Source of the DNA: Pseudomonas sp. stari2
GTDB lineage: Bacteria; Pseudomonadota; Gammaproteobacteria; Pseudomonadales; Pseudomonadaceae
Length of the DNA: 64,000 nucleotides
Direction of reading: 5' to 3'
Assembly (NCBI RefSeq): GCF_040760005.1
Contig: NZ_CP099760.1
Span: 3,033,501 to 3,097,500, forward strand
The notes beneath the pieces were generated by a model, which worked only from the letters and a program-made list of their open reading frames with translations, made no database searches and had not been told where the DNA came from. A program made the position numbers and the translations under genes. This document shows, piece by piece, positions 10,547 through 20,399 of the stretch. The stretch's first letter is position 1. Each line of letters opens with the position of its first letter.

Positions 10547-11434
10547 ATGAGTTACTACCAGCCGGGCATTCTCGCCACCCCAGTTCCGCCGCAAGCACGT
10601 CACCTGTTTTTCGCCCTCGAGTCGGTTGAAGCGCTGCCGCAGGCGATCGACAACCTGCTGAACCTGGTGGACGGCAAGTCGGCGGTAGTCGGTTTCGGTG
10701 AATCCTTGGTCAAGGCCCTGAATGTGAACATCGATGGCCTGCGCAGCTTTCCGGCGCTGACCGGCGTTGGCGTGGAAAACCCGTCGACCCAGCACGCCCT
10801 GTGGGTCTGGCTGCACGGTGTCGACCGCGGCGAGCTGCTCAACCGCAGTACCGCACTTGAGGCCGCACTGGCCCCGGCGTTGCGTCTGGTGCAGATGCAG
10901 GAAGCCTTCCGCCACAAGGACGGCCATGACCTCACCGGTTATGAAGACGGCACTGAGAACCCGCACGACGAAGCCGCCATCGCCGCCGCACTGCAAAGTG
11001 AAGGCGCCGACGGTCTGGTTGGTGGCAGCTTTGCTGCGATCCAGCAATGGCAGCACGACCTCAAGGGTTTCCATGCACTGTCCGCTGAAGACAAGGACAA
11101 CATCATGGGCCGTCGCCTGAGCGACAACGAAGAGATCGACGACGCACCGGTGTCCGCCCACGTCAAGCGTACCGCCCAGGAAAGCTTCGCCCCGGAGGCC
11201 TTCGTCGTGCGCCGTTCGATGCCGTGGATCGAAGGCGACCGCGCCGGCCTGATGTTCCTGGCGTTCGGTTTCTCCCTCGATGCCTTCGAAGCGCAACTGC
11301 GCCGCATGAGCGGTCTGGAAGACGGCATCACCGACGGTCTGTACCGCATCAGCCGGCCGATCACCGGTGGCTACTACTGGTGCCCGCCGCTGCAAAACGG
11401 CCACCTCGACCTGCGCGCGTTGCGCATCGGCTAA
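10547..11434 (+). CDS. Dyp-type haem peroxidase
   Basis: 295 residues. It contains the family hallmark GYEDGTENP (GxxDG, residues about 127-135) with the distal catalytic Asp, and the region VSAHVKRTAQESF with the proximal haem-ligand His. Length and N-terminus fit the cytosolic YfeX-like class. Such enzymes use hydrogen peroxide to oxidise dyes, porphyrins or other donors. AAGGAG lies before the ATG. The downstream oxidoreductase starts ten bases after this stop, so the two are probably co-transcribed. Confidence 0.9.
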   Translation: MSYYQPGILATPVPPQARHLFFALESVEALPQAIDNLLNLVDGKSAVVGFGESLVKALNVNIDGLRSFPALTGVGVENPSTQHALWVWLHGVDRGELLNRSTALEAALAPALRLVQMQEAFRHKDGHDLTGYEDGTENPHDEAAIAAALQSEGADGLVGGSFAAIQQWQHDLKGFHALSAEDKDNIMGRRLSDNEEIDDAPVSAHVKRTAQESFAPEAFVVRRSMPWIEGDRAGLMFLAFGFSLDAFEAQLRRMSGLEDGITDGLYRISRPITGGYYWCPPLQNGHLDLRALRIG

Positions 11435-11443
11435 GGCGTGACG

Positions 11444-12412
11444 ATGAAAGTGGTGCGCTGGGGCATGATCGGTTGCGGCAGTGTCGCCGAACGCAAGAGC
11501 GGGCCGGCCTTCTACAAAGCCCCCGGCTCGGCGTTGGTGGCGGTGATGGGGCGACGCCTCGAAGCCGTGTCCGATTACGCCGCGCGTCACGGCATCGCCC
11601 GGACTTACACCGACGTCGATGCCCTGATCAATGACCCCGAGGTGGACGCGGTGTATATCGCCACGCCACCCGACAGCCACCACGCTTACAGCCTGAAAGT
11701 CGCCGCCGCCGGCAAGCATTGCTGCGTGGAAAAACCCATGGCCCTCAACGCCAGGCAAAGCCGCGAGATGCAGCAAGTGTTTGCCGATGCCGGTCTGCAC
11801 TTGTTCGTCTCCTATTACCGCCGTTCGTTGCCGCGTTTCCAGCAGGTGCGGCAATGGCTGGAACAGGGTCGCATAGGGGAAGTCCGGCACCTGAGCTGGA
11901 CGCTGACCAAGGCGCCGTCGCCCAGGGATCTGGATGGCAGCGCCAACTGGCGCACCGATCCGGCGGTGGCCGGTGGCGGCTATTTCGCGGATCTGGCCAG
12001 CCATGGTTTTGACCTGTTCCAGTACCTGCTCGGCGATATTGTCGAGGTGGCCGGGTTCACGGCGCGTCAGGCCGGGTTGTACGCGGCGGAAGATGCGGTC
12101 AGCGCCAGTTGGCGATTCGCATCGGGTGCGCTGGGCATGGGCTGCTGGAGCTTTGTTGCGGACCGGCGCGAGGATCGGGTCGAGATCATCGGCAGCCAAG
12201 GGCGGATCGGCTTTTCGGTGTTCGACGAGCATCCGGTCGAGCTGCGCGCCGATGAGGGCATCAGCCTGGAAATCCCCCATCACGAACACATCCAGTGGCA
12301 CCACGTGCTGGGCATGAACGCGCAGATTCGCGGCGAATCACTGCATCCGGCGACAGGGGCAGAGGCCCTGAAGATCGATTGGGTCATGGATCAAATCCTC
12401 AAGCGCCACTGA
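11444..12412 (+). CDS. Gfo/Idh/MocA-family NAD(P)-dependent oxidoreductase
   Basis: 322 residues. The N-terminal Rossmann motif GMIGCGSVAERKSGP is followed by DAVYIATPPDSHHAYSLKVAAAGKHCCVEKPMALN, where the EKP signature marks the family's catalytic Lys, and by a C-terminal alpha/beta domain containing GGGYFADLASHGFDLFQYLLGD. The family oxidises or reduces sugars, inositols and related hydroxyl compounds; the substrate is unknown. I prefer the ATG at 11444 to the GTG at 11438 because AAGG is better spaced for it. Confidence 0.85.
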   Translation: MKVVRWGMIGCGSVAERKSGPAFYKAPGSALVAVMGRRLEAVSDYAARHGIARTYTDVDALINDPEVDAVYIATPPDSHHAYSLKVAAAGKHCCVEKPMALNARQSREMQQVFADAGLHLFVSYYRRSLPRFQQVRQWLEQGRIGEVRHLSWTLTKAPSPRDLDGSANWRTDPAVAGGGYFADLASHGFDLFQYLLGDIVEVAGFTARQAGLYAAEDAVSASWRFASGALGMGCWSFVADRREDRVEIIGSQGRIGFSVFDEHPVELRADEGISLEIPHHEHIQWHHVLGMNAQIRGESLHPATGAEALKIDWVMDQILKRH

Positions 12413-12451: not shown

Positions 12452-12497
12452 CTTGTCATAACGTCTCTAAGATCACGTCATAACTCGTTATAACAAG
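12452..12497. promoter_or_regulatory. Predicted GntR operator array
   Basis: Three copies of GTYATAAC occur just before the gntR gene: GTCATAAC at 12455, GTCATAAC at 12477 and the perfect palindrome GTTATAAC at 12487. The outer two are embedded in a long inverted repeat, CTTGTCATAACG (12452-12463) against CGTTATAACAAG (12486-12497), with one mismatch. Half-sites of the type GT..AC with an A/T core are usual for HutC-subfamily GntR proteins. Probable autoregulation and control of the downstream operon. Confidence 0.6.
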
Positions 12498-12507
12498 TGA
12501 TCTCGTG

Positions 12508-13254
12508 ATGACCGATAACGTTCTCTCTCTGGGCAGTGTCCCGTTGCACACCCAACTGCGCGACGTGCTGCGCGCCCGCATTCTCGACGGCGAATACCCG
12601 CAAGACAGCCAGATGCCGTCTGAAAGCGAGCTCGGCACGCTGTTCAAGGTCAGCCGCATCACCGTGCGCCAGGCCCTGGGCGATCTGCAGAAAGAAGGGC
12701 TGATCTTCAAGATCCATGGCAAAGGCACCTTCGTCGCCAAACCCAAGACCTTCCAGAATGTCAGCACCTTGCAAGGCCTCGCCGAGTCCATGACCGGTCG
12801 TGGCTATGAGGTGATCAACCGCCTGCGCAGTTTCAAATTCATCGCCGCCGACAAACTGGTCGCCGAGCGTTTGCAGGTTGCCGAAGGCGAAATCGTCGCG
12901 CAGATCAAACGCGTGCGCCTGATCAACCGCGAGCCGATCTCGCTGGAAATCACCTACCTGCCCAAAGCCATAGGCGAGCGGTTGGAGAAGGCCGATCTGG
13001 TGACCCGCGACATCTTCCTGATCCTCGAAAACGACTGCGGCATTGCCCTCGGCCACGCCGATCTGGCCATCGACGCGGTGCTGGCCGACAGCGACCTGAC
13101 CCAGGCGCTGAACGTCGAGGCCGGCTCGCCGATCATGCGCATCGAGCGCCTGACCCACGACGCCAACGGCCAGCCGCTGGACTTCGAACACCTTTACTAC
13201 CGTGGCGATGCGTTCCAGTACCGCCTGCGGATCGACCGGCAAAAAGGGGCGTGA
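12508..13254 (+). CDS. GntR-family transcriptional regulator (HutC/UTRA subfamily)
   Basis: 248 residues. An N-terminal winged helix (about 10-75) contains LRARILDGEYPQDSQMPSE, VSRITVRQALGDL and GKGTFVAKP. A C-terminal UTRA effector domain contains PISLEITYLPKAIGE and ends with FEHLYYRGDAFQYRLRIDR. A GTG at 12505 sits directly before the ATG used here. The flavoprotein gene begins two bases after the stop region, so the regulator leads the operon; it probably senses the transported substrate or a metabolite of it. Confidence 0.85.
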   Translation: MTDNVLSLGSVPLHTQLRDVLRARILDGEYPQDSQMPSESELGTLFKVSRITVRQALGDLQKEGLIFKIHGKGTFVAKPKTFQNVSTLQGLAESMTGRGYEVINRLRSFKFIAADKLVAERLQVAEGEIVAQIKRVRLINREPISLEITYLPKAIGERLEKADLVTRDIFLILENDCGIALGHADLAIDAVLADSDLTQALNVEAGSPIMRIERLTHDANGQPLDFEHLYYRGDAFQYRLRIDRQKGA

Positions 13255-13255
13255 C

Positions 13256-14986
13256 ATGACCCGCAATACCTTAGAGCAGGAATACGACATCGTCGTGATC
13301 GGCGGCGGCACCGCCGGCCCGATGGCCGCGATCAAGGCCAAGGAAAAGAACAAGGAACTGCGCGTGTTGTTGGTCGACAAGGCCAACGTCAAGCGCAGCG
13401 GTGCGATCAGCATGGGCATGGACGGCCTGAACAACGCAATCATTCCCGGCCACTCGACGCCGGAGCAGTACACCAAGGAAATCACCATTGCCAACGACGG
13501 CATCGTCAATCAGGCGGCGGTGTACGCCTACGCGACCCACAGTTTCGAAACCATCGAACAGCTCGACCGCTGGGGTGTGAAGTTCGAGAAGGACGAAACC
13601 GGCGATTACGCGGTGAAGAAAGTCCACCACATGGGCGCCTACGTGCTGCCGATGCCGGAAGGGCACGACATCAAGAAAGTCCTTTATCGCCAGTTGAAGC
13701 GCGCGCGGGTGAGCATCACCAACCGACTGGTCTGCACACGCTTGCTGACCGACGAGGAGGGCGCCGTCAACGGTGTGATGGGGTTTGACTGCCGCACCGC
13801 CGACTTCCATGTGATCAAGGCCAAGGCAGTGATCCTCGCCTGTGGCGCGGCCGGGCGACTCGGTCTGCCGTCCTCGGGTTACCTGATGGGCACCTATGAA
13901 AACCCGACCAATGCCGGCGACGGCTATGCGATGGCGTACCACGCCGGGGCCGAGCTGGCGAACCTCGAGTGCTTTCAGATCAACCCGCTGATCAAGGACT
14001 ACAACGGCCCGGCCTGCGCCTACGTCACTGGCCCGCTCGGTGGCTACACCGCCAACAACAAGGGTGAACGCTTCATCGAATGCGACTACTGGAGCGGGCA
14101 GATGATGTGGGAGTTCCACCAGGAGCTGGAAAGCGGTAACGGTCCGGTATTCCTCAAACTCGATCACCTGGCCGAGGAAACCATCCAGAACATCGAGGAA
14201 ATCCTCCACAGCAACGAGCGCCCGAGCCGCGGCCAGTTCCACGCCAATCGCGGCACCGATTACCGCACGCAGATGGTCGAGATGCACATCTCGGAAATCG
14301 GTTTTTGCAGCGGCCACTCGGCGTCCGGGGTGTGGGTCAACGAACGGGCGGAAACGTCGGTGAAAGGTTTGTACTCGGCCGGTGACATGGCCGCCGTGCC
14401 GCACAACTACATGCTCGGCGCGTTCACCTACGGCTGGTTCGCCGGACATAACGCAGCGGACTTTGTCGCCGGGCGCGAGTTCTCCGCTTTGGATGTCGAG
14501 CAGATCGAGAAGGAAAAGGCCCGGGTCTACGCACCGCTGGACCGCGAACACGGCCTGCCACCGGCGCAGGTTGAGTACAAGCTGCGGCGCTTCGTCAACG
14601 ACTACCTGCAACCACCGAAAGTGACGAAGAAGATGGAAATCGGCCTGCAACGTTTCAGCGACATCGAACGCGATCTCAACGAAATGAAGGCCAACAACGC
14701 CCACGAACTGATGCGCGCCATGGAAACCAGTGTGATCCGCGACTGCGCCGAAATGGCCGCTCGCGCCTCGCTGTTCCGCGCCGAAAGTCGCTGGGGCCTC
14801 TACCACTACCGCGTCGATCACCCGCAACGGGACGACCGCGAATGGTTCTGCCACTGCCACCTGAAGAAGGGCGAAGACGGGCGCATGATCAGTTTCAAGA
14901 AAGCCGTCGAGCCTTACATCATTCCCCTCGATGCCGAGGAAATGCAGGCCTACGACCGTTTGCGGGTTGGCGCTTTCGCCGCTTGA
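13256..14986 (+). CDS. AprA-like FAD-dependent oxidoreductase (fumarate reductase/adenylylsulfate reductase alpha-type)
   Basis: 576 residues. The dinucleotide motif GGGTAG (16-21) is followed by VDKANVKRSGAISMGMDGLN, which resembles the FAD-binding segment of dissimilatory adenylylsulfate reductase AprA more than that of succinate dehydrogenase. Later come ISEIGFCSGHSASGVWV and GLYSAGDMAAVPHNYMLGAFTYGW, the second FAD contact. The C-terminal third is helical and holds HCHLKKGEDG. The next gene encodes an AprB-like ferredoxin, so the pair probably forms an AprBA-like heterodimer. True APS reduction is unlikely to be the role in an aerobic pseudomonad; the neighbouring sulfonate-type ABC importer suggests turnover of a sulfur compound (inference). 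Confidence 0.8.
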   Translation: MTRNTLEQEYDIVVIGGGTAGPMAAIKAKEKNKELRVLLVDKANVKRSGAISMGMDGLNNAIIPGHSTPEQYTKEITIANDGIVNQAAVYAYATHSFETIEQLDRWGVKFEKDETGDYAVKKVHHMGAYVLPMPEGHDIKKVLYRQLKRARVSITNRLVCTRLLTDEEGAVNGVMGFDCRTADFHVIKAKAVILACGAAGRLGLPSSGYLMGTYENPTNAGDGYAMAYHAGAELANLECFQINPLIKDYNGPACAYVTGPLGGYTANNKGERFIECDYWSGQMMWEFHQELESGNGPVFLKLDHLAEETIQNIEEILHSNERPSRGQFHANRGTDYRTQMVEMHISEIGFCSGHSASGVWVNERAETSVKGLYSAGDMAAVPHNYMLGAFTYGWFAGHNAADFVAGREFSALDVEQIEKEKARVYAPLDREHGLPPAQVEYKLRRFVNDYLQPPKVTKKMEIGLQRFSDIERDLNEMKANNAHELMRAMETSVIRDCAEMAARASLFRAESRWGLYHYRVDHPQRDDREWFCHCHLKKGEDGRMISFKKAVEPYIIPLDAEEMQAYDRLRVGAFAA

Positions 14987-15011
14987 GGCATCACTAGAGA
15001 GAGTCTGGACC

Positions 15012-15257
15012 ATGGCCTATCAAGCCCAGGAAATCTTCTTCCGCTCCAATGCTCCCGTCACCGTGGACGAGGACAAATGCATCGCCGAAAAGGGCTGCAC
15101 CGTGTGCGTCGACGTTTGCCCGATGGACCTGCTGGCGATCAACCCGGCCACGCAAAAGGCCTACATGGCTTTCGATGAGTGCTGGTACTGCATGCCCTGC
15201 GAAAAGGACTGCCCGACCGGTGCGGTGAAAGTCGAAATCCCGTATCTGCTTCGCTAA
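15012..15257 (+). CDS. AprB-like ferredoxin with two [4Fe-4S] sites
   Basis: 81 residues with two cysteine clusters: Cys23-x5-Cys29-x2-Cys32-x3-Cys36-Pro and Cys57-x2-Cys60-x2-Cys63-x3-Cys67-Pro. The layout resembles the beta subunit of adenylylsulfate reductase but without its C-terminal tail. It lies 25 bases after the flavoprotein gene, so it is most likely the electron-transfer partner of that enzyme. The start at 15012 gives the expected N-terminus; upstream codons in the same frame overlap the flavoprotein gene and are not credible. Confidence 0.85.
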   Translation: MAYQAQEIFFRSNAPVTVDEDKCIAEKGCTVCVDVCPMDLLAINPATQKAYMAFDECWYCMPCEKDCPTGAVKVEIPYLLR

Positions 15258-15368
15258 AACGCTATCCGGCAACACCGGACGCCTGCTTCAAGACACCCCC
15301 TCGTTTCCCACCGCGCCCTGATCGCGGCGGAGACGAACATCCTATAAATGATTCGAGGGGATTCAACC

Positions 15369-16772
15369 ATGTTGCGTGCAGCAATCGCCGGTCTGGTACT
15401 GGCTTCGTTCACCTTGTCTGCTTCGGCCGAAACCATCCGCATCGCCATCGGAACCCAGGACACCACCATCAACTGCGCCGCCGGCGGGCTGTTGATTCGC
15501 GAGCTGGGCCTGCTCGACAAATACCTGCCCCACGACGGCGCCTACAAGGACGCCAAGTACGACGTACAGTGGAAGAACTTCACCAGCGGCGCGCCGCTGA
15601 CCAACGAGATGGTCGCCGGCAAACTCGACTTCGGCGCCATGGCCGATTTCCCCGGTGCGTTCAACGGCGTGGCGTTCGAAACAGCCGGCAAACACAGCCT
15701 GTTCATCAGCGTGTTGTCGGGCAGCATCAAGGGCAGCGGCAACGGCATTGTGGTGCCGAGCGCGTCGGGCGTTCAGTCTTTGAGCGAACTCAAGGGCAAG
15801 ACCATTTCCGTGCCGTTCGCCTCCACCGCCCACGGCATGTTGCTGCGCGCTGTGGCGGAGCAGGGTTGGGATCCGCTCAAGGATGTGAACATCATCGCCC
15901 AGCCGCCGGAGGTCGCAGGTTCCGCGTTGCAGGCCGGCAAGATCGACGCCCACGCTGACTTTGTGCCGTTCGCCGAACTGTTCCCGAGCCGTGGTTTTGC
16001 CCGCAAGATCTACGACGGCGCCCAGGCCAATGCGCCGACCTTCCACGGTGCGCTGGTGGATCAGGCCTACGCGAAAAAGTACCCGGAAATCGTTGTCGCC
16101 TATTTGCGCGCAAGCATCGAAGCCAATCAGCTGCTGGCCGCCGAACCGGAGAAGTACAGCGAACTGATCGCCAAGGTCACCGGTGTCGATGCCGAGGTCA
16201 ATTACCTGTTCCACGGCCCGCTCGGCGTGCAGACCCGTGACCTGAGCTGGAAACCGGAATATCGCCAGGCCGTGGGCACCGCCATCGACACGCTGAAGCT
16301 GCTGAAGAAGGCCGATCGCGGGCTCGATCTGAATACCTTTATCGACGATCAGTACATCCGCGCGGCGTTCAAGGCCTCGAATCTGGATTACACCGCGCAA
16401 CTGGCCAATTACGCGCAGACGCCGTTGAAGTCTGTCGATGCGGTGACCGGAAAGGCCATTTCGGATTTCAGCCATGTCGCCGAAATCTGGGTGCGCGGTG
16501 AGGACAAGGTCCGGCGTTATTCCTCGGCTGAAGAGGCGTTCACGGCGTTGGCCGGCCTGAAGTCGGAAGGCAAGAACATCCGGGCGGTGTATGCCCAGGC
16601 GAGTGACAGCGGGATCAAGTTGCTGGCGGAGCAGGCGTGGTTTGCCAGTGATGGGAAGGGGCACCTCAGCGCGTTTTTGTTGAAGGGGCAGGCGCAGCAA
16701 TTTGCGTCGGAACAGGGAGGCAAGGTGTTTGATTTCACCGATGCCACCGCGCAGGCCGTGGCCAGTCGCTAA
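15369..16772 (+). CDS. TauA/SsuA-type ABC substrate-binding protein with NosL-like C-terminal domain
   Basis: 467 residues. A signal peptide ending ...SASA precedes ETIRIAIGTQDTTINCAAGG; residues to about 370 look like a periplasmic binding protein for nitrate, sulfonate or taurine (AMADFPGAFNG, GSGNGIVVP, FASTAHGMLLRAVAEQG). Such proteins usually have about 320-350 residues. The extra ~85 residues (HVAEIWVRGEDKVRRYSS... AWFASDGKG... SAFLLKGQAQQFASEQGGKVFDF) follow the pattern of NosL-type domains, including the paired AxxFAxxxGGxVxxF ending, but show no obvious Met/Cys metal ligands. The start at 15369 has AGGGG upstream. It is the first gene of the importer in this operon. Confidence 0.8.
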   Translation: MLRAAIAGLVLASFTLSASAETIRIAIGTQDTTINCAAGGLLIRELGLLDKYLPHDGAYKDAKYDVQWKNFTSGAPLTNEMVAGKLDFGAMADFPGAFNGVAFETAGKHSLFISVLSGSIKGSGNGIVVPSASGVQSLSELKGKTISVPFASTAHGMLLRAVAEQGWDPLKDVNIIAQPPEVAGSALQAGKIDAHADFVPFAELFPSRGFARKIYDGAQANAPTFHGALVDQAYAKKYPEIVVAYLRASIEANQLLAAEPEKYSELIAKVTGVDAEVNYLFHGPLGVQTRDLSWKPEYRQAVGTAIDTLKLLKKADRGLDLNTFIDDQYIRAAFKASNLDYTAQLANYAQTPLKSVDAVTGKAISDFSHVAEIWVRGEDKVRRYSSAEEAFTALAGLKSEGKNIRAVYAQASDSGIKLLAEQAWFASDGKGHLSAFLLKGQAQQFASEQGGKVFDFTDATAQAVASR

Positions 16773-16774
16773 TC

Positions 16775-17557
16775 ATGAAAATCTCAAAAAAACGCTGGAT
16801 ATCAAGAGCAGCCTCGCTGCTGCTCTGCCTGCTCTTCTGGCAACTAGCCGCCAGCCACCACTGGAACCTCGGCCTGGTCACCTTCGCCAACGTTCCGACC
16901 CCATTGGCCGTGATCGAAGCCGCATTGGGCCTGGGCGACTCCGGCAAGCTCATCCAGCACCTTAGCGCGAGCCTCGGCCGGGTCTTCGCCGGTTACCTCG
17001 CAGCGCTGATCATAGGCATCGCCCTGGGCCTGGCCATCGGCCGTTCAAAATGGGCTGAAGACCTGCTGCTGCCGCCACTGGAAGTGCTGCGTCCAATCCC
17101 GGCCGTGGCGTGGATTCCACTGGCCATTCTGATGTTCCCGTCGTCGGAATTGTCGATGGTGTTCATCACCTTCACCGGTGCGCTGTTCCCGATCCTGCTC
17201 AACACCGTGCACGGCGTCGAAGGCGTCGACCCGCGCCTGATTGCCTCGGCCAAAAGCCTGGGAGCCGGGCGCCGGGCGATCCTGTTGGAAGTGATCCTGC
17301 CGGGCGCCGCGCCCAGCATCATCACGGGCCTCGCCATCGGCATGGGCACGTCGTGGTTCTGTCTGGTGACCGCCGAAATGATCTCCGGCCAGTTCGGCAT
17401 CGGTTACTACACCTGGGAGTCCTACACGATTCAGAACTACGCCGACATCGTGGTCGGCATGTTGCTGATCGGCGTGTTGGGCATGGGCAGCAGCCTGCTG
17501 ATCAAACGCCTTGGCGGCCTGTTCACGCCCTGGCACCGACCACGAGGAAAAGCCTGA
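16775..17557 (+). CDS. ABC transporter permease, SsuC/TauC type
   Basis: 260 residues with about six hydrophobic segments and the BPD_transp_1 coupling motif region EGVDPRLIASAKSLGAGRRAILLEVILPGAAPSIITGL. It begins two bases after the binding-protein gene and its stop overlaps the ATPase start (ATGA). The inner-membrane channel of the sulfonate-type importer; substrate not determinable from sequence. Confidence 0.9.
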   Translation: MKISKKRWISRAASLLLCLLFWQLAASHHWNLGLVTFANVPTPLAVIEAALGLGDSGKLIQHLSASLGRVFAGYLAALIIGIALGLAIGRSKWAEDLLLPPLEVLRPIPAVAWIPLAILMFPSSELSMVFITFTGALFPILLNTVHGVEGVDPRLIASAKSLGAGRRAILLEVILPGAAPSIITGLAIGMGTSWFCLVTAEMISGQFGIGYYTWESYTIQNYADIVVGMLLIGVLGMGSSLLIKRLGGLFTPWHRPRGKA

Positions 17558-18405
17558 TGAGCGTGATGCAAGCCCCGGAAGGGCGGATCGACATCCGCCA
17601 GTTATCCATCGTCCTCGGCGAGGGCCGGCACGCGTTCGAAGCGGTGCAGGGGCTGGATTGCCAGATCGAGCCGGGCCAGTTCGTGTGCATTCTCGGGCCG
17701 TCCGGTTGCGGCAAATCGACTTTGCTCGGCGCGCTGGCCGGGCATCTGCAACCTCACGGCGGGCAGTTGAAAGTCGACGGCGCCGAAGTGTCCGGCCCGT
17801 CACCGCAGCGCGGCATGGTGTTCCAGCATCACACCCTGTTCCCGTGGCGCACGGTGCGTGACAACGTCGCTTTCGGCCTGAAGATGCGTGGCATCGGTAA
17901 AAGCGAACGCCATCGTGCCGCCGATGACATCCTCAAACTGGTTGGCCTCGAAGGATTCGCCGAACGCTGGCCGGATCAGCTCTCCGGCGGCATGCAGCAA
18001 CGGGTAGAAATCGCCCGGGTGCTGGTCAACCGGCCACGGCTGTTGCTGATGGACGAACCCTTCGGTGCGCTGGACGCGTTGACCCGCCTGAACATGCAGG
18101 AACTGTTGCTGGACATCTGGACGCGGATTCGCACCACCGTGGTGTTCGTCACCCATGACATCGACGAAGCGCTGTTCCTCGCCGACCGCTTGCTGGTGAT
18201 GAGCGCACGGCCGGGGCGGATCATCGAAGACCTGCGCCTGGACTTCCCACGGCCACGCACCACCGAACTGGTGACCAGCCACGCGTTCTCGCGCCTCAAG
18301 CGCCACTGCCTCGATCTGCTGCGCCATGACAACGACCGACCGCTGCCGCGCCTGAACCCGCTCGGTTTGCCTCCTGAAAACGCCTTGCCGAGATTTGCCC
18401 TGTGA
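17557..18405 (+). CDS. ABC transporter ATP-binding protein, SsuB/TauB type
   Basis: 282 residues. Walker A is GPSGCGKS (47-54), the signature is LSGGMQQR, Walker B is LLLMDEPFGALD and the switch His is in VFVTHDIDEA. Length and the ending RPGRIIEDLRLDFPRPR fit nitrate/sulfonate/taurine importer ATPases. The ATG overlaps the permease TGA. Upstream codons in the same frame lie inside the permease gene and were dismissed. Confidence 0.92.
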   Translation: MSVMQAPEGRIDIRQLSIVLGEGRHAFEAVQGLDCQIEPGQFVCILGPSGCGKSTLLGALAGHLQPHGGQLKVDGAEVSGPSPQRGMVFQHHTLFPWRTVRDNVAFGLKMRGIGKSERHRAADDILKLVGLEGFAERWPDQLSGGMQQRVEIARVLVNRPRLLLMDEPFGALDALTRLNMQELLLDIWTRIRTTVVFVTHDIDEALFLADRLLVMSARPGRIIEDLRLDFPRPRTTELVTSHAFSRLKRHCLDLLRHDNDRPLPRLNPLGLPPENALPRFAL

Positions 18406-19364
18406 CCTCATTTTTTGCTGTGACCGATAACGAAGACATTCTCGCCCTGCAACCACGACTGACCGCTGATGACGCCGGAGTGCGCCGGATTGCCCTGATC
18501 GATCTGGCCGACCTTGAAGAGCCGGATGGCTTGCTCTGGCTGGTTGAGCGGTTGGCCGAAGACCCTGCCGAAGAGGTGCGTGCCGAAGCAGCGCGTCTAT
18601 TGGAAGCCTGGGAAGACGAACCGGTGGTTGAAGCGCTGTGTCAGGCGCTGACGGATCCGTCGCCGGCGGTGCAGGCTGCTGCGGCTCAGAGCCTGAGCCT
18701 GCTCAAGACCGAAGCGGCGGGAAGGGTGATTTTGCCGTGGACCGCTCATGTCGAAACCAGCGTGCGAATTGCCGCGTTTCGGGCCTTGCGCGAATTGCGT
18801 TTCCCCGGCGCCGCGCCTGCCGCGATTCAGGCATTGAACGATGCTGATGCGAGTGTGCGTCGCGAAGCCGTTGGTGTGCTCGGCTGGCTCAAACAGCTGG
18901 ATGCCTTGCCGGCGCTGGCACGCTTGGCCAGTGCTGACCCAGACACCGAAGTACGCCGCGCCGCTACCGGCGCCTTGGGCCTGGCGAGTGGCGCAGATGT
19001 GCTGCCCGCCTTGAGTCAGGCCTTGCAGGACGACGCCTGGCAAGTGCGCGAAGAAGCCGCGACAACGCTCGGCAAGGTCGGCCACACCGACGCCGGGCCG
19101 GCTCTGATCGAAGCCTTAAGCGACGATTACTGGCAGGTTCGTCTGCGCGCAACCCGCAGCCTTGGCCGTTTGCGTTACGTGCCGGCACTCGACGCCCTGA
19201 TCGACACCCTCGGTCATCGCATCAGCAACCTGCGCAAGGAAGCTGCGCTGGCGCTGGGCGAGTTGAATGATCGCGGCGCCGTGGCCGCGTTGCAGGCCGC
19301 GCAGGACGACGGCGACCCGGAAGTGCGCAAAGCGGTGCGAATTGCCTTGAGTCAGTTGCAATGA
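18402..19364 (+). CDS. HEAT-repeat protein
   Basis: 320 residues made almost wholly of HEAT/PBS-lyase-type repeats of about 31 residues (for example DPSPAVQAAAAQSLSLLK, DADASVRREAVGVLGWLKQ, DPDTEVRRAATGALGLA, DDAWQVREEAATTLGKVG, DDYWQVRLRATRSLGRL). No signal peptide, so cytoplasmic. The GTG start overlaps the ATPase stop (GTGA); a GTG at 18420 is an alternative. HEAT proteins serve as scaffolds or chaperone-like lyases. Tight linkage to the AprBA-like operon suggests a role in enzyme assembly or cofactor loading (inference). Confidence 0.85.
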   Translation: MTSFFAVTDNEDILALQPRLTADDAGVRRIALIDLADLEEPDGLLWLVERLAEDPAEEVRAEAARLLEAWEDEPVVEALCQALTDPSPAVQAAAAQSLSLLKTEAAGRVILPWTAHVETSVRIAAFRALRELRFPGAAPAAIQALNDADASVRREAVGVLGWLKQLDALPALARLASADPDTEVRRAATGALGLASGADVLPALSQALQDDAWQVREEAATTLGKVGHTDAGPALIEALSDDYWQVRLRATRSLGRLRYVPALDALIDTLGHRISNLRKEAALALGELNDRGAVAALQAAQDDGDPEVRKAVRIALSQLQ

Positions 19365-19639
19365 ATCCGCTGGCGATCGGCAATTCCCAAAGTGAGCACC
19401 GGTTGCGGCTGAGCTGGCCGGATGGCCGCGAGCAGCTGCTTGACCATGCCGAACTGCGCCGCCAGTGCCCGTGCTCGCAATGCCGGGCGTTCCGCCTGCG
19501 GGGCTCGGCTCCGCTAGTGGATGATCGAGTGCGTGTAATCGAACTCAACCCGCAGGGTTACGGCCTGCAACTGGTGTTCAGCGACGGCCATCAACGCGGG
19601 ATCTATCCATGGCAGTTCCTGGCGCAACTGACACCGTAG
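19361..19639 (+). CDS. DUF971 domain protein (GBBH-like N-terminal domain)
   Basis: 92 residues. LRLSWPDGREQLLDHAELRRQCPCSQCR, then VRVIELNPQGYGLQLVFSDGH and GIYPWQFL are the conserved features of DUF971. Cys36, Cys38 and Cys41 form a CxCxxC metal-binding-like cluster. The domain also occurs fused to Fe-S carriers of the Mrp/ApbC type and at the N-terminus of gamma-butyrobetaine hydroxylase (family knowledge). Its start overlaps the HEAT gene stop, so it closes the operon. A role in Fe-S or metal handling for the flavoprotein/ferredoxin pair is inferred. Confidence 0.85.
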   Translation: MNPLAIGNSQSEHRLRLSWPDGREQLLDHAELRRQCPCSQCRAFRLRGSAPLVDDRVRVIELNPQGYGLQLVFSDGHQRGIYPWQFLAQLTP

Positions 19640-19661: not shown

Positions 19662-20399
19662 TCAGAAGGATTTGCTGACGCTGGCCACCACCGTCGCCGT
19701 GCACACATCCTTGAAGCCCCAGTTGCTCAGGCACTGGCTCTGCGACAGGTCGGTGTCGATGTAGCTCAGGCCCAGCACTACGCCGGCCAGGTTGTGGGTC
19801 AGTTTGACTTCCCACTCCCGGTAGGATTCTTCGCCATGTCCGGACGCCGAGTACAGATGCGGGTCCTTGAAGTCCATGTTGCCGTAGCGCAGCTTCAGCC
19901 CGGAATCCAACGGCAATTCGGTTTCATAGCCGATGTAGCTGTAGAGCGAACTCTGTTTGCTGTCGATGCCCGGCGCATCACTGGAGTAGTACGCCGCGAG
20001 TTTCACGCCGTAGGCGCTGAGAATCGAGTACACCTCGCTCTGGTTGAACTGGCTCTCCTTGGGATACGCGTATTTGATGTAGCCCAGATCCAGACTCACG
20101 GCTTCGGTCGCCTGCCACAGCCAGCCGGCGTAGTAATCAACTTCCTGACGGGTTTTCAGGCCGCCGCCGAAATCGACGTTCGAACTCCACGCGCCGAGGT
20201 ACAGGCCGCTGCTGTGGGCCAGGGTCAAACCGGCCTGCACCACGGGATCGTTCTGGGTCTGGGAGATGCCGCGGGTGCGGTAGTCGCTGGCCAGAGTCAG
20301 GTCGACCAGCACCGCGAAATCATCGTTCAAGGGAATCGCGTGGCTGCTTAAAGGCAGCAGGCTCAAGGAAGTGAGGGCGAGCAGGGGCATGGCTTTCAT
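19662..20399 (-). CDS. TorF-family putative porin
   Basis: 245 residues. A signal peptide (MKAMPLLALTSLSLLPLSSHA) is followed by the family motif LTLASDYRTRGISQTQNDPVVQAGLTLAHSSG, then GLYLGAWSSNVDFGG and a barrel-like chain ending VASVSKSF with terminal Phe. This is the Gcw_chp/TorF outer-membrane family. It ends 22 bases from the convergent DUF971 gene and is separated by about 100 bases from the upstream amidohydrolase. Substrate unknown. Confidence 0.85.
   Translation of the reverse strand: MKAMPLLALTSLSLLPLSSHAIPLNDDFAVLVDLTLASDYRTRGISQTQNDPVVQAGLTLAHSSGLYLGAWSSNVDFGGGLKTRQEVDYYAGWLWQATEAVSLDLGYIKYAYPKESQFNQSEVYSILSAYGVKLAAYYSSDAPGIDSKQSSLYSYIGYETELPLDSGLKLRYGNMDFKDPHLYSASGHGEESYREWEVKLTHNLAGVVLGLSYIDTDLSQSQCLSNWGFKDVCTATVVASVSKSF

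Follow-up and report, generated by a model that had tools for sequence, protein, structure and literature searches.

We analyzed a 64,000-nucleotide stretch of the Pseudomonas sp. stari2 genome (contig NZ_CP099760.1, positions 3,033,501 to 3,097,500; called the window below, with positions counted from its first letter), in which a gntR gene and the seven genes following it encode an AprA/SdhA-superfamily flavoprotein, a two-cluster ferredoxin, an ATP-binding cassette (ABC) importer, a HEAT-repeat protein and a DUF971 protein. The linkage of these genes exceeds chance, because the core of the operon is kept in 120 loci from three phyla, 80 of which are from close Pseudomonas relatives. This system, kept from actinobacteria to cyanobacteria, is annotated as a respiratory enzyme, but its residues argue otherwise. 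Our preferred reading, held tentatively and at a little less than even confidence, is that the operon may serve inducible sulfur acquisition, through uptake of a sulfonate-like compound and its reduction by a ferredoxin-fed flavoprotein that would release sulfite.

Linkage, layout and putative operator of the operon

Linkage was determined by tblastn within 9 kb of the flavoprotein gene in three sets of loci. The 80 Pseudomonas loci were the best 80 of 512 confirmed ones, all on genome contigs, and as close relatives they are non-independent. A second set comprised 20 of the 21 genomes that passed the NF006131 cut-off among 398 Pseudomonadota, the 21st being the window's own genome; the genome frequency of the flavoprotein family thus refers to Pseudomonadota. 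The third set comprised 20 loci out of the 51 plasmid records that matched. The ferredoxin gene was found in every locus (80/80 Pseudomonas, 20/20 genome and 20/20 plasmid loci; 120/120 in total) and the HEAT gene in 77/80, 20/20 and 20/20 (117/120), the three loci that lack it (L032, L041 and L066) being short contigs that end less than 2.4 kb past the flavoprotein gene. Counts in the same order were 78/80, 18/20 and 18/20 for the binding protein, 77/80, 18/20 and 19/20 for the permease, 77/80, 19/20 and 18/20 for the ATPase, and 79/80, 10/20 and 9/20 for GntR, all of which may include unrelated paralogues (e.g., ABC genes near L118 and L122; GntR at L119 and L143). The DUF971 gene, present in 76/80, 19/20 and 9/20, is undercounted by tblastn, which missed an annotated copy in L150.

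The loci belong to Alpha-, Beta- and Gammaproteobacteria, Acidithiobacillus, Cyanobacteriota and Actinomycetota, and lie on both chromosomes and plasmids. With a cyanobacterial flavoprotein as the query, Nostoc, Leptolyngbya, Fischerella and others were among the best 120 matches. The regulator class varies by clade, between GntR, Crp/Fnr and LysR. An earlier note on this DNA, made from the sequence alone, had singled out these genes as a unit, and their linkage indeed extends beyond close relatives, across the three phyla. A flavoprotein 99% identical to that of the window (P0050) is labelled Bacillus subtilis in a source database, probably from a mislabelled or contaminated assembly. At L118 10574-14035, on a mobilizable plasmid of Acidithiobacillus caldus, the operon is followed by genes for FdxA and a 1153-residue protein with a Pyr_redox_2 domain.

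In the window, gntR and the seven genes occupy 12505-19639 on the + strand, with neighbors overlapping or lying at most about 110 bases apart: gaps of 1, 25, 90 (or 111) and 2 bases are followed by overlaps of 1, 4 and 4 bases. The first gene encodes a GntR/HutC-type regulator (12505-13254; Pfam UTRA 131 bits, GntR 65 bits). After the flavoprotein gene (13256-14986) comes that of an 81-residue 2x[4Fe-4S] ferredoxin (15012-15257; Fer4 families), the probable electron-transfer subunit of the flavoprotein. The importer genes encode a periplasmic binding protein with a SsuA/TauA/NrtA fold and a NosL-like C-terminal domain (15369-16772, or from an alternative start at 15348), and a permease (16775-17557; BPD_transp_1) and an ATPase (17557-18405; ABC_tran) of the nitrate/sulfonate/taurine type. 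The last two products are a HEAT-repeat protein (18402-19364; HEAT_2 185 bits), which probably partners the flavoprotein or helps to assemble it, and a DUF971 (GBBH-like_N) protein (19361-19639; PF06155 74 bits), probably acting in Fe-S (iron-sulfur) or cofactor delivery. Reading frames and domain searches confirmed the genes, order, strand and tight spacing first described for this locus, and the CxCxxC motif attributed to the DUF971 protein reads C-P-C-S-Q-C. The earlier note also listed no sat, aprM, qmo or dsr gene nearby, an absence at which no specific search was aimed.

Beyond the DUF971 gene, the next downstream gene (19662-20399) is on the opposite strand. A scan for promoters and terminators gave no signal exceeding shuffled controls. 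Upstream of the operon and on the same strand, 10547-12412 encodes a Dyp-type peroxidase and a Gfo/Idh/MocA oxidoreductase, which are not among the recurrent genes elsewhere. The host genome, a single contig of 6.31 Mb, contains three DUF971/GBBH-like_N matches (G000:C1 644293, 3052882 and 6013776), of which only the middle one is in the operon.

A 14-bp palindrome, CTCGTTATAACAAG, at 12484-12497 is likely the operator of a dedicated GntR autoregulator. The consensus CTYGTYATRACRAG was found within 120 bases upstream of gntR as an exact match in 88/96 cases, with one mismatch in 2/96 and with two in 2/96, and was not found in 4/96, the pattern having been derived in part from loci included in this count. 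The background rate for a site with at most one mismatch is 7e-5 per 130 bp. Exact matches were also present in divergent loci, e.g., L127, L147 and L156, whose GntR proteins are 66%, 58% and 65% identical, respectively. The site in the window is the only exact match in the host genome; sites with at most one mismatch number five genome-wide, as do those of a reversed control pattern. A weaker copy with two mismatches lies at 12452-12465.

The flavoprotein family and its partner proteins

The flavoprotein belongs to NF006131 (PRK08275), a family named "fumarate reductase," with a score of 1138.9 bits against a cut-off of 587. Its scores are under the cut-offs of the models for PAPS (3′-phosphoadenosine 5′-phosphosulfate)-reductase-like proteins (NF005331, 299.9 versus 557 bits), AprA (TIGR02061, 194.7 versus 641.75 bits) and SdhA/FrdA (TIGR01812, 167.2 versus 567.3 bits). 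The best match among solved structures was the alpha subunit of a methanogen PAPS reductase (8a8o_A, 218 bits; MtPAPSR), followed by AprA.

We take N74, E141, W234, R265 and the pocket His of AprA (A. fulgidus numbering) to be residues of the adenosine 5′-phosphosulfate (APS) site. PMC10322725 also names Q145 as an APS-site residue and gives K120, R121 and S122 as the specificity residues of MtPAPSR. In our alignment, the flavoprotein keeps N74 and the pocket His, but its family has E141 replaced by K/R, Q145 by H/R, W234 by Y, and R265 by an invariant L; over E141 and Q145 the alignment spans an insertion and is hence less certain. R121 and S122 of MtPAPSR align with H124 and H125. With these replacements and the scores under both cut-offs, assignment as a (P)APS reductase was dropped. 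For SdhA and FrdA, we presume that the substrate His of the HPT motif and a catalytic Arg form the dicarboxylate site. The flavoprotein has INP in place of HPT, and the segment with the catalytic Arg has no aligned counterpart. Together with the TIGR01812 score, this led us to reject assignment as a fumarate reductase or succinate dehydrogenase; on these sequence grounds, the family name is misleading.

Four cysteines (Cys239, Cys254, Cys351 and Cys497) are invariant in 22 aligned members of the family, across which mean column identity is 71%. Cys239 and Cys254 align with H259 and G274 of AprA, both in the segment that bears R265, and Cys351 aligns with the residue three positions before the pocket His. 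These three cysteines are family-specific and flank the aligned pocket segments.

A maximum-likelihood tree was built from 33 rows: 20 family members, 5 AprA, 5 AsfA (the flavoprotein of the asfRABC sulfonate cluster; see below), MtPAPSR, SdhA and NadB. Sequences from L111-L116 were called AprA by their scores and a nearby ferredoxin match (5/6), not by TIGR02061. The family formed its own clade (support 94/86), outside the clade of AprA with MtPAPSR (100/100) and that of the five AsfA rows (100/100), and the flavoprotein thus lies inside neither of these two. Support for grouping the family with AsfA was 36/10, and the alternative grouping with AprA/PAPSR gave an approximately unbiased (AU) test p of 0.478, with long branches flagged. 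The ferredoxin scored 37 bits with the AprB model TIGR02060, under the cut-off of 135.65. The label "AprBA-like" in the earlier note therefore stands for the superfamily and the nearest kin, but not for the family cut-offs or most of the APS/PAPS-site residues.

The HEAT protein appears tied to the flavoprotein by gene fusion. The two are joined in a single open frame in the actinobacteria Tsukamurella (L123) and Nonomuraea (L155). In the L123 fusion, Pfam recognized both domains, and the fused family NF010374 gave 1568 bits against a cut-off of 1196; the window HEAT protein matches the HEAT half of NF010374. On a Mesorhizobium plasmid (L152 11945-12902), the annotation splits the HEAT gene into two pieces that overlap. 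Four cyanobacterial loci, two of which were run through Pfam, encode an Mrp/NBP35 protein after HEAT, and tblastn found no DUF971 within 9 kb there. This swap favors a role for DUF971 in loading Fe-S clusters but does not prove it.

The importer is of a class with several ligands. In the predicted model of the binding protein, the binding domain structurally matches the SsuA/TauA/NrtA fold class, with the C-terminal part (~350-467) outside the matches. A NosL-like domain at 16476-16757 of its gene was detected by Pfam only, under the curated cut-off in the window protein, and was matched in 20/26 homologues. No conserved Met or Cys was seen in this domain in the binding-protein alignment, and copper binding therefore looks unlikely. 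The binding protein is under the cut-off of the SsuA model TIGR01728 (125.4 versus 163.5 bits), the permease under those of the SaoP, ntrB, SsuC and TauC models, and the ATPase under that of its best NCBIfam match, a taurine ATPase (264 versus 357 bits). In cyanobacterial loci L121 (6685-8685), L153 and L154, a LysR regulator has a domain similar to the binding protein of the operon, and may be a cytoplasmic sensor of the same ligand.

Proposed role in sulfur acquisition and the alternatives

In the pathway that we propose, a small effector would release GntR from the palindrome, and the binding protein, permease and ATPase would import a small sulfonate-like organosulfur anion. Electrons could pass from NADPH through a ferredoxin-NADP reductase (FNR) and a soluble ferredoxin such as FdxA to the small subunit's two [4Fe-4S] clusters, and from these to FAD; certain other bacteria have genes for FNR and FdxA close to the operon. 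The reduced flavin would cleave the imported compound and free sulfite, as AprAB and PAPSR do on sulfonyl-nucleotides, although the pocket would be a remodeled one. For PAPSR and AprA, PMC10322725 proposes that sulfite is formed by way of flavin N5. Sulfite would feed cysteine synthesis, any surplus leaving via YeiH or TauE-type exporters where present. The HEAT protein would bind the flavoprotein stably, and DUF971 or Mrp/NBP35 would load the flavoprotein's Fe-S clusters.

Genes near the operon bear on this pathway. Within 9 kb of the flavoprotein gene, FNR was found in 9/20 genome and 2/20 plasmid loci, FdxA in 4/20 and 3/20, YeiH in 6/20 and 3/20, and TauE-type exporters in 0/20 and 6/20. 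In 5/20 genomes, which all belong to a single genus, this nearby YeiH gene is the sole one of the genome; a sixth genome has two YeiH genes, one of them within the 9 kb. YeiH confers sulfite resistance in Salmonella, according to PMC12880088.

A parallel comes from AsfAB. PMC4267179 reports that asfRABC, a cluster with a reductase/ferredoxin system, an ABC transporter and a LysR regulator, is required for the use of aromatic sulfonates, and that P. putida S-313 with a mutated asfA retained the use of aliphatic ones. In C. metallidurans CH34, AsfA/AsfB are Rmet_4334/5 according to PMC2864759. In the CH34 record, where ferredoxins were sought in 220 kb, a flavoprotein gene and an adjoining two-cluster ferredoxin gene lie near a sulfonate-type ABC importer; as this record is unannotated, we only infer that L170 8312-9823 is Rmet_4334. 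Homologues of this AsfA-type flavoprotein were present in 5/249 Pseudomonadota genomes. AsfA, AsfB and ABC genes occurred in 6/6 AsfAB loci, with HEAT and DUF971 matched in 0/6. No close relative of AsfA is encoded in the window's genome, where the top AsfA match is the window flavoprotein itself, at 27%. The window operon fits the AsfAB-type plan of flavoprotein, two-cluster ferredoxin and sulfonate-type ABC genes in one cluster. At L186 8400-15155, two AsfAB pairs flank one ABC gene set, the first AsfA match covering the C-terminal two thirds only.

The sulfite exporters nearby in several lineages and the parallel AsfAB loci strengthen the sulfur reading. Of the periplasmic uptake-to-redox pathway for sulfur or another small anion suggested earlier, they favor sulfur, while the specific substrate is one that we infer.

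Several observations weigh against reductive release of sulfite. None of FNR, FdxA, YeiH or TauE-type exporters was found within 9 kb in any of the 80 loci from Pseudomonas, and a single genus accounts for most of the YeiH cases. With Arg265 lost, the AprA mechanism is not simply transferable to the flavoprotein, whose residue positions are those of an alignment because the predicted model (27 sequences; unused) reached a predicted local distance difference test (pLDDT) score of only 48. SsuA-type folds bind nitrate, bicarbonate, thiamine precursors and pyrroloquinoline quinone (PQQ) as well. Related genes for NtaA/DmoA-type (LLM) monooxygenases lie near the operon in L117 (16509-17879) and L150 (18322-19665), and a TauD-like protein, recognized by inspection of its sequence, is encoded near it in the related loci L133 and L146. 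Finally, SsuD is over the cut-off in 18 of the 21 operon-bearing Pseudomonadota genomes, a proportion for which the background rate was not measured. L117 and L150 are plasmid loci of different classes, and their LLM monooxygenase may be a partner of the operon or a neighbor through shared sulfur regulation.

A first alternative, rather unlikely in our view, is that the flavoprotein reduces a non-sulfur anion, such as a nitrogen compound, a small organic acid or a thiamine-like precursor, brought in by the NitT/TauT-type importer. The promiscuity of this importer class and the different regulators between clades would suit it, and FAD_binding_2 enzymes reduce many substrates. It is countered by the sulfite exporters that several lineages encode close to the operon, by the sulfonate-type binding proteins, LLM-type monooxygenases or metX found near the operon in individual loci, and by the loss of the dicarboxylate residues.

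Slightly less probable again is that the flavoprotein and ferredoxin supply electrons to a sulfonate monooxygenase whose gene lies elsewhere, as proposed for AsfAB with ssu. PMC2864759 and PMC4267179 describe AsfAB as an electron chain that serves the oxygenative cleavage of C-S bonds. The monooxygenase and TauD-like genes listed above would agree with such a role, as would the window's genome, in which two SsuD-type alkanesulfonate monooxygenase genes are over the cut-off (G000:C1 4568007 and 6198290), and the frequency of SsuD among the operon-bearing genomes. The hosts examined, which we take to be mostly aerobes, count in the same direction. However, SsuD was sub-cut-off only in two of the 21 operon-bearing genomes and had no match at E up to 0.001 in one. 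Among 303 non-core neighbors in 40 diverse loci, identified from a codon-scored gene call that missed some genes, no family occurred in more than 4 loci and no oxygenase family in more than 2. The flavoprotein is also of a catalytic type, and its column identity is more than a shuttle seems to need.

The invariant Cys239, Cys254 and Cys351, aligned at the pocket segments of AprA, would suit reduction of S-S or S-sulfonate (Bunte-salt) compounds, e.g., S-sulfocysteine or organic thiosulfate, by cysteine-assisted flavin chemistry; we find this improbable, as the cysteine positions come from a sequence alignment and the neighborhoods have no direct link to such substrates. That the flavoprotein reduces APS or PAPS in assimilatory sulfate reduction, in the manner of its closest solved relative, the methanogen PAPSR, is very improbable despite the conserved N74 and pocket His, given the NF005331 and TIGR02061 scores, the four replaced site residues and a dedicated small-anion importer ill-suited to an intracellular nucleotide substrate.

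Significance and relation to known systems

A bolder claim is possible, although doubtful for now: the family may be an O2-independent organosulfonate (or S-sulfonate) reductase, widespread in soil bacteria and cyanobacteria, in which a ferredoxin-fed FAD and pocket cysteines would break the sulfur bond and which would need a dedicated HEAT/DUF971 maturation pair. If true, this would recast AsfAB as a catalyst and not an electron shuttle. The sulfonate part of organic soil sulfur is currently credited to monooxygenases, according to PMC4267179. Reductive desulfonation would give access to organic soil sulfur by a second kind of chemistry, and would provide a testable model of AsfAB action.

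Among the titles listed by a search of the open-licence literature for the gene set, none was on it, and the operon is absent from passages of PMC9694294, PMC3596284, PMC8079746 and PMC13352529. The pathway had been put forward as undescribed; this holds for the gene set in that literature, but the plan of flavoprotein, ferredoxin and sulfonate ABC importer is known from asfRABC.

Four known systems resemble the operon. The window flavoprotein is a member of NF006131, and NF010374 covers the same protein with HEAT repeats joined to it; both families carry the name "fumarate reductase/succinate dehydrogenase flavoprotein subunit." SsuABC and TauABC share the binding-protein fold and transporter class of the window importer, which nevertheless remains under the curated sulfonate and taurine cut-offs and whose binding protein has the extra NosL-like domain. 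Dissimilatory AprBA and the Methanothermococcus PAPS reductase (8a8o) likewise pair an alpha subunit carrying FAD with a beta subunit carrying two clusters, but the window flavoprotein sits in an importer operon. In AsfRABC of P. putida S-313 and its presumed CH34 homologue, a flavoprotein of the same superfamily, a 2x[4Fe-4S] ferredoxin, an NMT1-type binding protein, a permease and an ATPase are clustered as in the window; AsfA differs in being 24-27% identical to the window flavoprotein and in its separate clade, and the regulator reported for that cluster is of the LysR type, whereas that of the window operon is GntR.

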